From positions 124,001 to 188,000 of the forward strand of contig JAFEBU010000027.1 in the NCBI GenBank assembly GCA_018242505.1: a stretch of DNA of 64,000 nucleotides. Reading direction: 5' to 3'. The position numbers were made by a program, and so were the translations under genes. The stretch comes from Pseudomonadota bacterium. GTDB lineage: Bacteria; Pseudomonadota; Alphaproteobacteria; Reyranellales; Reyranellaceae. Every line of letters starts with the position of its first letter. The first letter of the stretch is position 1. Under the pieces are notes generated by a model, which had not been told where the DNA came from, did no database searches, and saw only the letters and a program-made list of their open reading frames with translations. Shown here piece by piece: positions 9,846 to 13,259 of this stretch.

Positions 9846-9937
9846 GGAAAGAAGTCTAGGGGCGAATGAAAGAAAACGGGTTGCAAGGTTTGCGTCGCTG
9901 ACGGCAGTATTGAGAATTGATTTCCAAGAGAGCGGGC

Positions 9938-10417
9938 ATGGTAGCGAAATTATCGCTTGATTCCTTCGACCGGAAGATTCTGGATTGCTTGCAGGACGAT
10001 TCGGACATGCCGTTGGCCGAGGTGGCGAAGCGGGTGGGACTTTCGACCACGCCCTGCTGGCGGCGCATCAACCGGCTCAAGGAGGAAGGGATCATCCGTG
10101 CGCGCGTGGCCTTGCTCGACCGCAAGGCGGTGAATGCCGGCGTCACGGTATTCGTGGCCGTGCGTACCGCGCAGCACAATGCGCAGTGGCTGGCGCGCTT
10201 CGCCCGGGCGGTGGCGTCGTTTCCGGAAGTGATGGATTGCTATCGCATGAGCGGCGAGATCGACTATCTGATCCGCCTGGCGCTGCCCGACATCGACGCC
10301 TACGACGCCTTTTACAAGCGCCTCATCGCCAGGATCGAACTGTCCGACGTCACGTCCATGTTTGCCATGGAGGAGATCAAGTCCACGACCCGGCTGCCGC
10401 TCTCCTATCTGCCGTGA
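9938..10417 (+). CDS. Lrp/AsnC family transcriptional regulator
   Basis: 159-residue AsnC/Lrp-type regulator. N-terminal HTH: DRKILDCLQDDSDMPLAEVA then KRVGLSTTPCWRRINRLKEEG. The C-terminal RAM ligand-binding domain contains VMDCYRMSGEIDYLIRL. Start placed at the ATG at 9938; a TTG at 9917 in frame is possible and would add seven residues. It probably senses an amino acid. The next gene downstream is a 2-hydroxyacid dehydrogenase, a plausible target. Confidence 0.88.
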   Translation: MVAKLSLDSFDRKILDCLQDDSDMPLAEVAKRVGLSTTPCWRRINRLKEEGIIRARVALLDRKAVNAGVTVFVAVRTAQHNAQWLARFARAVASFPEVMDCYRMSGEIDYLIRLALPDIDAYDAFYKRLIARIELSDVTSMFAMEEIKSTTRLPLSYLP

Positions 10418-10534
10418 TCCGAAAGCGATTGCCTCGCGAAACGGGGTCGCGGCGATGTGCGGCACTCGAACTGGCTTCGCGACGCGGCTGCCCCTAGGAT
10501 CGCGTCCGTCCGAATCAAGATCGCAGGGGGAACG

Positions 10535-11533
10535 ATGCCCACGGGCCCGAATTCCGGCAAGAACCGAAAGAAAGTCCTGATCGTTGGCCGCATGCCGCAA
10601 GCTGGTCTCGATGTGTTGAAGAAGCGCGACGATGTCGACTACGAGATCCTGATCGACGATTCGGTGCCGGCGCTGCATCCCAAGCTCAAGGACGCCAATG
10701 CCGTGACGCTGGGCGCCACCCCCTTTCGCCAGGCCGAGCTCGATGCAGCGCCAGGCATGATGGTCGTGGCGCGACTCGGCGTCGGCTTCGACGCGGTCGA
10801 GATTCCCGCGCTCAACAAGCGCAAGATTCCACTCATGACCACCGGCATCGCCAACTCGGTCTCGGTCGCCGAGCATGCGATGTACATGATGCTGGCGGCG
10901 GCGCGGCTCGTGAAAAAGTATGACCGCTTTGTACGCGAGGGCGGCTGGGGGCAGCGGCTGTCCGAACTGCCGGCCGATCTTTCCGGCAAGTCGGTGCTGG
11001 TCGTCGGCATGGGACGCATCGGCTCTCGCACCGTGAAGCGTTGCGTCGCCTTCGACATGGAGACCTACGTGCTCGATCCCAACCTCTCCGAGGCCGAAAT
11101 CAAGAAGGCGGGCGCCATCAAGGTGACCGACCTCAAGGCGATCCTGCCCAAGGTCGATTTCGTGTCGGTTCATTGCCCCAAATCGCCGGAGACGGTGAAC
11201 ATGTTCAATGCAGAGACGCTGGCGCTGATGAAGGCTGACGCATTCCTGGTGAACACCGCCCGTGGCGGCATCGTGAACGAGGAGGCGCTCTATACGGCCC
11301 TGAGCACGGGCAAGCTGCGCGGCGCCGGGCTCGATGTGCTCGACCGCGAGCCGCCCGACCCCAAGAACAAGCTCTTCACGCTCGAAAACGTGATCTTCAG
11401 CCCGCACATGGCCGGCGTCACCAAGGAGGCGAGCGACCGCATGGCCGTCACCGCCATCGAGAACATCCTGTCGGTATTCGACGGCCGGCCGAACGCCGCC
11501 AATGTCGTGAACAAGGAAGTGCTGTCGTCCTAG
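10535..11533 (+). CDS. D-2-hydroxyacid dehydrogenase (SerA-like)
   Basis: 332-residue NAD-dependent D-isomer 2-hydroxyacid dehydrogenase. The nucleotide-binding loop is GMGRIGSRT, preceded by VLVV. The catalytic triad is Arg in NTARGGIVNE, Glu in DREPPD and His in FSPHMAG. It lacks the ACT domain of long phosphoglycerate dehydrogenases. The ATG at 10535 follows CAGGGGG. A cytosolic reductase of a 2-keto acid or a phosphoglycerate dehydrogenase are both possible. It lies 117 bases after the AsnC gene. Confidence 0.87.
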   Translation: MPTGPNSGKNRKKVLIVGRMPQAGLDVLKKRDDVDYEILIDDSVPALHPKLKDANAVTLGATPFRQAELDAAPGMMVVARLGVGFDAVEIPALNKRKIPLMTTGIANSVSVAEHAMYMMLAAARLVKKYDRFVREGGWGQRLSELPADLSGKSVLVVGMGRIGSRTVKRCVAFDMETYVLDPNLSEAEIKKAGAIKVTDLKAILPKVDFVSVHCPKSPETVNMFNAETLALMKADAFLVNTARGGIVNEEALYTALSTGKLRGAGLDVLDREPPDPKNKLFTLENVIFSPHMAGVTKEASDRMAVTAIENILSVFDGRPNAANVVNKEVLSS

Positions 11534-11544
11534 CGCACGGGAGA

Positions 11545-11991
11545 GTGTCGACCCTTGTCAGACGTCGATGTCCAAGACCGATCGATCCCGCGACAGCCAA
11601 GTATCTCCGATGCCATTGGTTTGGGAGTGTTCAGGAGCTTCCCGACCTCGAGTTGCAGCGGCGCATGTGGCTCGATTTGACCAATGCCAACCCGCATTGG
11701 TCGTATCTCGAGTTCACGTGCTCCTGTCCCGATGAAGACCAGCTTGCCTCCGCTTATACGGGAGGTTGGCTGGCTGAGTGGGAGTTTGAACTGCCGCGTA
11801 GCCTCGGAGACACCATTGATTCGTATTCGGCGCCGGGGGACGACGACTACAACCACGAAGCGATACTAAGCGATCCAGCTTGGCACACTCTTGTGGAGGC
11901 GGCTGAGCGGACACGACAGCAATTGCTTGCCGCCATCGTGGATACTGATGAGCGCCGTAGTCTTCTCGGTACCGTCGCTCCCGACTGTTGA
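11545..11991 (+). CDS. Hypothetical protein
   Basis: 148-residue open frame from a GTG at 11545. I recognise no family. It is rich in Trp and acidic residues (NANPHWSYLEFTCSC, GGWLAEWEFELP) and has no signal or membrane segment. Its GC content is visibly lower than that of its neighbours, suggesting later acquisition. The start is weak: GGGAGA touches the GTG, and the next methionine is residue 41. It may be a truncated gene. Confidence 0.45.
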   Translation: MSTLVRRRCPRPIDPATAKYLRCHWFGSVQELPDLELQRRMWLDLTNANPHWSYLEFTCSCPDEDQLASAYTGGWLAEWEFELPRSLGDTIDSYSAPGDDDYNHEAILSDPAWHTLVEAAERTRQQLLAAIVDTDERRSLLGTVAPDC

Positions 11992-12012
11992 CAGAGGGGG
12001 ATGCACAGAGGC

Positions 12013-12231
12013 TTAACCCGGCAGCAGATCCTCGATCTCGGCATCGGTCGGGAAACGACCGGTCTTGCTGCGGGTGTATTTCAGGGTGCCGTCGACAGAT
12101 ACGTCGAACTGGCCGGATTTACCGGGGCGCAGCTCGATGTCGGCGGCGCCCATCTTCTCGAGGCGTTCCCTCACACGGAGGGCTTGCGGCTTGTAGCCTC
12201 AAGCGCCGCAATATTCGATCAGGACCTTCAT
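12013..12231 (-). CDS. SelW-like selenoprotein (Rdx family) with in-frame UGA = Sec
   Basis: 72-residue Rdx/SelT-SelW-SelH-fold redox protein if the UGA at 12201-12199 is read as selenocysteine. It begins MKVLIEYCGAUGYKPQALRV, giving C8-G9-A10-U11, the CxxU redox motif of SelW; animal SelW has the same YCGAUGYKP. After the UGA the frame stays open with family-like sequence (RERLEKMGAADIELRPGKSG, FDVSVDGTLKY, KTGRFPTDAEIEDLLPG) and ends in TAA at 12015-12013. A hairpin 16 bases after the UGA fits a bacterial SECIS. Read as stop, only ten residues would be made. It probably uses glutathione or thioredoxin as thiol partner. No strong ribosome binding site is seen. SelA/B/C/D are not in this window. 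Confidence 0.85.
12168..12182 (-). promoter_or_regulatory. Candidate bacterial SECIS hairpin
   Basis: Reading the minus strand, 16 bases follow the UGA (12198-12183). Then CCCTC (12182-12178), loop CGTGT (12177-12173) and GAGGG (12172-12168) form a five-pair stem. The loop carries a G in its first two bases and starts 22 bases after the UGA, inside the 16-37 window described for bacterial SECIS elements. Because it lies in coding sequence, it also encodes ALRVRE. Confidence 0.72.
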
Positions 12232-12278
12232 TCCGAAAAGGTGGGGCCTTAAGCTCCGCGCAACAAGGGGAATTTGTG

Positions 12279-13259
12279 ATGAAATACGGACCGCTTGGCC
12301 GCTCGGGCCTGATCGTGAGCCGCATCTGTCTGGGCGGTAATTCGTGGGGCGCCAAAGGACGCCGCGGCTGGGGCAAGTTCGACGAGGCGGAGGCGCCAAC
12401 CTATTTCAAGCACGCCCTCGATGTCGGCATCACCTTCTTCGATACCGCCGATACCTACAATTTCGGCCTGTCGGAGGAGATCATGGGGGCCACGCTCCTG
12501 AAGATGGCCAGGCGCGAGGAGATCGTGCTCTCCACCAAGGTCGGCATCCGCATGAGCCCGGTCGCCAACGACCAGGGCACTGGCCGCAAGCATCTGATGG
12601 CCTCGCTCGACGAGCAGCTGAAGCGCCTGCAAACCGACTATATCGATGTCTATCAGGTCCATCGCCTCGATCCGCACACGCCGATCGAAGAGACGATGTA
12701 CTCGCTCGACCAGATCGTGCGCTCGGGCAAGGTGCGCTACATCGGCGGCTCGACCATGCCGGCCTACAAGTTCGCGCAGATGGTGATGATCGCCGACTGG
12801 AAGGGCTATGCGCGGCCGATTGCCATGCAGAACCTGTACAATCTGATCCAGCGCGAGGAGGAGCGCGAGATGAACCGGCTCTGTCACGAGCAGGGCGTCG
12901 GGCTGATCCCGTACTCGCCGCTGGCGCGCGGCTTCCTCGCCGGCAATCGCAGCAAGGAAGGCGGCGGCGCTACCGAACGGTCGAAGAACGATGCGCAAGT
13001 CCAGCCCGGCACTTATCGCGACTGCGACTGGGAGGTGGTCGAGCGGTTGAAGAAAATCGCGTCGGCCCGCGGCTGCACGCCGGCGCAGGCGGCGCTCGCC
13101 TGGCTGCTGGCCAAGCCCTACATGGGTGCGCCGATCATCGGCGCCACCGATCTCGAGCAGCTCACATCGGCGGCGAAGGCGACCGAGATCGCACTCACAG
13201 CCGAAGAGTGCAATCGCCTCGAGGAGCCCTATCAGTTCCGCGTTTCGCCGGCGAACTAG
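12279..13259 (+). CDS. Aldo/keto reductase
   Basis: 326-residue NADPH-dependent aldo/keto reductase with a TIM barrel. DTADTYNFGLSEEIMG near residue 50 carries the catalytic Asp and Tyr. The Lys is in STKVGIRMS, and YQVHRLDPHTP is the His-containing strand. The ATG at 12279 follows CAAGGGGAA. It is divergent from the selenoprotein gene, with 47 bases between the starts, so the two may share a regulatory region. The stop overlaps that of the convergent MFS gene in a CTAG. Confidence 0.88.
   Translation: MKYGPLGRSGLIVSRICLGGNSWGAKGRRGWGKFDEAEAPTYFKHALDVGITFFDTADTYNFGLSEEIMGATLLKMARREEIVLSTKVGIRMSPVANDQGTGRKHLMASLDEQLKRLQTDYIDVYQVHRLDPHTPIEETMYSLDQIVRSGKVRYIGGSTMPAYKFAQMVMIADWKGYARPIAMQNLYNLIQREEEREMNRLCHEQGVGLIPYSPLARGFLAGNRSKEGGGATERSKNDAQVQPGTYRDCDWEVVERLKKIASARGCTPAQAALAWLLAKPYMGAPIIGATDLEQLTSAAKATEIALTAEECNRLEEPYQFRVSPAN

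Follow-up and report, generated by a model that had tools for sequence, protein, structure and literature searches.

A predicted SelW-like selenoprotein of the Rdx family, with a conserved in-frame UGA and a covarying SECIS hairpin, in the alphaproteobacterium Reyranella

SelW-like selenoproteins have been known in bacteria since at least 2005 (PMC1088965). They rank among the most abundant selenoprotein families in the Sargasso and GOS data sets (PMC1088965; PMC2398784), and a 2022 review lists them among bacterial selenoproteins (PMC9312934). The SelW of Campylobacter jejuni has been characterized by ribosome profiling and proteomics, which revealed translation past the UGA and a full-length protein (PMC11955535). 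These four reports support the statement, made in an earlier note on the DNA described here, that bacterial SelW-like proteins exist. In a 2006 survey, fdhA was the only selenoprotein gene in the alphaproteobacterial, betaproteobacterial and pseudomonad selenocysteine (Sec) users examined there (PMC1794560). Our search of the open-licence literature found no paper that names a selW-like gene in Reyranella.

The window, a stretch of 64,000 nucleotides (positions 124,001 to 188,000 of contig JAFEBU010000027.1, assembly GCA_018242505.1), carries such a gene on its minus strand at 12013-12231. It consists of 72 codons and a TAA, with the ATG starting at 12231, the TAA at 12015-12013 and an in-frame TGA at 12201-12199. 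The TGA is codon 11 and forms a CxxU motif with Cys at codon 8, in the context YCGAUGYKP. With the TGA read as U, the product is MKVLIEYCGAUGYKPQALRVRERLEKMGAADIELRPGKSGQFDVSVDGTLKYTRSKTGRFPTDAEIEDLLPG. The strand, coordinates, UGA position and motif given in the earlier note matched exactly on re-reading. The translation matches the Pfam Rdx family (PF10262) with an E-value of 5.4e-16 and 59 bits (cut-off 22.6), and it scores 43.9 bits against NCBIfam CXXU_selWTH (TIGR02174), above the cut-off of 34.2. The C8-G-A-U11 motif follows a strand at residues 2-8 and precedes a helix at 14-26, an arrangement that belongs to the Rdx fold. By sequence, the PDB matches are mouse selenoprotein W (2npb), human C17orf37 and Atu0228. 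An AlphaFold model built with 26 aligned homologues as input has a mean pLDDT of 94.7, and a structure search with it returned 23 PDB chains at E ≤ 0.001, of the Rdx/SelW type, mouse SelW and MIEN1 among them. The predicted fold thus agrees with the Rdx/SelW structures. Atu0228 (PDB 2fa8), a Cys-type alphaproteobacterial Rdx protein, has the same fold as the model, with a TM-score of 0.87 to 2fa8_C.

The Reyranella gene resembles other bacterial SelW-like selenoproteins (PF10262, CxxU) in its motif, its length of ~70-80 residues, its Rdx match and a SECIS just past the UGA, and differs from them in its host, an alphaproteobacterium of the genus Reyranella. C. jejuni SelW (CJnc60, NF041051) belongs to the same family and shares the same UGA decoding. 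The Reyranella protein scores 72.3 bits against NF041051 (the SelTWH_Campy equivalog), below the cut-off of 88, and is therefore a relative of C. jejuni SelW and not a member of that equivalog.

The gene stands alone between two oppositely read neighbours, and this order is kept across Reyranella. An aldo/keto reductase gene (12279-13259, plus strand; Pfam Aldo_ket_red, E 1.5e-71) lies divergently 47 bp upstream, with related frames in 46 loci. A D-2-hydroxyacid dehydrogenase gene (10457-11533, plus strand; Pfam 2-Hacid_dh_C, E 1.1e-58) lies convergently on the other side, with related frames in 41 loci. These neighbours say little about the function of selW. Between selW and the dehydrogenase gene there is also a 148-codon frame at 11545-11991 (plus strand) with no Pfam match. 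Promoter and terminator scans found nothing. The strand opposite selW holds an 83-codon ATG frame (12001-12252, plus strand) that is open and has open counterparts in 42 loci, and it could be proposed that this is the real gene, with the Rdx frame as its by-product. Openness is what one expects of any frame antisense to a conserved, G+C-rich gene, and the family match, the relatives of solved structure, the predicted fold and conservation beyond the genus all belong to the Rdx frame. We give the antisense frame practically no chance of being the real gene.

Conservation of the UGA and of the frame behind it supports the Rdx reading. Relatives were fetched from the genome collection with peptide patterns that leave out codon 11. 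We retrieved 66 of them, mostly from Reyranella; the others are betaproteobacterial, Binatota and deltaproteobacterial, with one from a planctomycete. R. massiliensis (locus L024) and R. soli (locus L037), both in culture, are among the carriers. Codon 11 is TGA in all 66; stop-free Rdx genes also occur in Alphaproteobacteria. The frame past the UGA is kept in nearly all of these loci, far beyond the genus, and pN/pS after the UGA is 0.26 in the Reyranella set. Across the order Reyranellales, 54 of 76 genomes have an Rdx gene, and each of these 54 genes contains exactly one in-frame stop, a TGA; a stop-free Rdx gene was seen in none of them. The gene was not found in the remaining 22 genomes, so selW is dispensable or has been lost in places. 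In the standard code the UGA would be a true stop, as in the neighbouring gene at 9917-10417, which ends with TGA, and the locus would then encode a 10-residue peptide or be a pseudogene with a decayed remnant downstream. The conservation past the UGA already refutes this reading, and a single TGA at the same codon throughout, followed by a covarying hairpin, also speaks against it; the chance that it is right is extremely slight. The frequent stops in orthologous loci that the earlier note named as grounds for rejecting the gene did not turn up. Nor did its other two grounds, a genome lacking selB or selC and homologues with neither U nor C at position 11. Its view that the gene is real is upheld by the 66 TGA-containing loci, the protein conserved past the UGA and the covarying hairpin.

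Two of the retrieved sequences are unusual. One selW-like copy (locus L072, 1284-1400) loses its frame after codon 24, which may reflect gene breakage or an error of assembly. In a Planctomycetota metagenome-assembled genome (CANEYR010000004.1; locus L073, 3001-3255), a distant Rdx frame has TGA at codons 8 and 11, so that its motif is UxxU instead of CxxU; a single strong hairpin, GCGCAGCG-GGTCT-CGCTGCGC, lies 3' of the second TGA. Because few branches of the protein tree are starred and its resolution is poor, we make no claim of horizontal transfer. A search of plasmids returned nothing but a distant Thermomicrobium Rdx.

The putative SECIS apical hairpin lies at 12168-12182 on the minus strand, with the stem CCCUC (12182-12178), the loop CGUGU (12177-12173) and the closing strand GAGGG (12172-12168). 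The earlier note had the stem and loop right (CCCTC/GAGGG around CGTGT) and placed the start of the hairpin 22 bases after the UGA; it is the loop that starts there (12177), and the stem starts 17 bases past the last UGA base (12182). In a gapless alignment of 67 sequences the pentaloop is always nGnnU, with the second-position G and the final U both invariant: CGTGT occurs in 51, AGTCT in 8, CGGGT in 6, and AGGTT and GGTCT in one each. Distant relatives have stems such as GCGGCC/GGCCGC, CTTCC/GGAAG and CAGCG/CGCTG in place of CCCTC/GAGGG. Among the 52 distinct sequences, 87.8% of stem cells are paired, compared with 39-55% in slid registers, and 30 cells are doubly changed, compared with 5.0 ± 1.9 in shuffles. 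Eight of the 67 members have a single C-A mismatch in the stem. Constraint is also seen at the codon level in the 42 close relatives, where synonymous variation is nil in four of the five hairpin codons; against the other degenerate codons the Mann-Whitney p is 0.003, a value that is descriptive, since related genomes share ancestry. The Arg21 codon is AGG in all 42, whereas across five genes of the neighbourhood AGG accounts for 5 of 119 Arg codons. The position of the hairpin relative to the UGA and its loop G, along with the invariant U and the covariation, are what is expected of a bacterial SECIS element.

Support for the hairpin is comparative and does not come from single-sequence stability: the fold energy of a 45-base segment gives a z-score of -0.96, which is not significant. 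The minimum-energy fold contains a possible outer helix (12159-12201, minus strand), in which UGAGGC (12201-12196), including the UGA itself, would pair with GCCUCG (12164-12159). We considered this helix as part of the SECIS. It is paired in 78.5% of cells, with two pairs changed on both sides, weaker than the inner stem; it is kept mainly within Reyranella and poorly outside the genus, and we did not retain it. Rfam gave no credible match at the selW locus. A covariance model made from the selW hairpins had selW as its sole significant match in the host genome and missed the hairpin of fdhA; it is too specific, and therefore unfit, for listing the selenoproteome.

The host has complete Sec machinery, as the earlier note had supposed. 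The genes selA (565 bits), selB (451 bits) and selC (71 bits) lie in a row on one contig, on which ARAGORN also calls a tRNA-SeC, and selD (438 bits) is on another contig of the same genome. A selC gene nested in selB has been reported for some Alphaproteobacteria (PMC8124441; PMC9312934). This arrangement is absent from the host genome, where selB ends ahead of selC. By its sequence, a formate dehydrogenase alpha subunit gene, fdhA (G000:C75:14299-17346; locus L117), appears to encode the second selenoprotein of the host; its frame holds a single TGA, and the SECIS-like hairpin GGCC-AGTCT-GGCC comes after this codon. The fdhA and selW hairpins share the loop type, with AGUCU in the former and CGUGU in the latter.

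The link between the TGA form and the Sec machinery extends across the class. In a sample of 385 genomes drawn across Alphaproteobacteria, Rdx genes were found in 46: 28 with TGA, spread over 13 families, 17 stop-free and one with TAA. A selA match above the cut-off is present in 27 of the 28 TGA-form genomes and in one of the 17 stop-free genomes (Fisher p ~4e-10, descriptive given the shared ancestry). The one TGA-form genome without selA is 77% complete. Against Rdx, the stop-free genes score 94-117 bits and the TGA-form genes 43-66; most of the stop-free genes are in genomes that lack selA. We presume them to be of the Cys type from this high score and their likeness to Atu0228. Two Reyranellales drafts, G042 and G033, have the TGA form and no selA or selB match above the cut-off. 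G033 is 60% complete; G042 has a strong tRNA-Sec (72.4 bits), and the contigs that carry its machinery are therefore probably absent from the draft. An in-frame TAA interrupts one high-scoring, Cys-type Rdx gene (G410:C179:1227-1448) of an alphaproteobacterial genome with selA and tRNA-Sec.

The Cys-type genes of other Alphaproteobacteria imply that a Cys product could work, and the UGA might then be read as another amino acid, either as Cys through tRNA-Sec at low selenium or by near-cognate Trp readthrough. Against this stand the SECIS-like hairpin and SelB-type machinery conserved alongside the UGA, the co-occurrence of selA with the TGA form, and the failure to see a stop-free gene among the 54 Rdx genes of 76 Reyranellales genomes. 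We consider it very improbable. Reading as selenocysteine, by comparison, is almost certainly correct. As the ribosome reaches the UGA at codon 11 of selW, SelB carrying Sec-tRNA(Sec) would bind the hairpin, the loop of which begins 22 bases downstream, and selenocysteine would be incorporated. The product would be a thioredoxin-like protein of 72 residues with the redox pair Cys8-Gly-Ala-Sec11. The frame, homology, fold, invariant UGA, covarying hairpin and complete host machinery form the computed basis of this assignment, and from them we infer that Sec is actually inserted at codon 11. The CxxU motif, the fold and the likeness to SelW suggest that the protein likely has a thiol/selenol redox role, linked to glutathione or thioredoxin.

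The Reyranella gene belongs to the already known SelW (Rdx) family and widens its range to a bacterial group in which it has been overlooked. Gene callers end the frame at the UGA and so easily miss it. What is modestly new is a SelW-like TGA gene in 13 alphaproteobacterial families, set against the fdhA-only picture of the 2006 survey. The SelW-like protein is probably a second, widely kept alphaproteobacterial selenoprotein beside FdhA, which in Reyranellales has been kept in the Sec form only (54 of 54) or lost outright (22 of 76 genomes without a match), and not converted to Cys. This pattern suggests that Cys cannot easily replace Sec here. The finding corrects the view of Alphaproteobacteria as fdhA-only selenocysteine users. 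The presence of Sec-type and Cys-type Rdx subfamilies in one class also provides a clean natural comparison, which bears on why some proteins retain selenocysteine.
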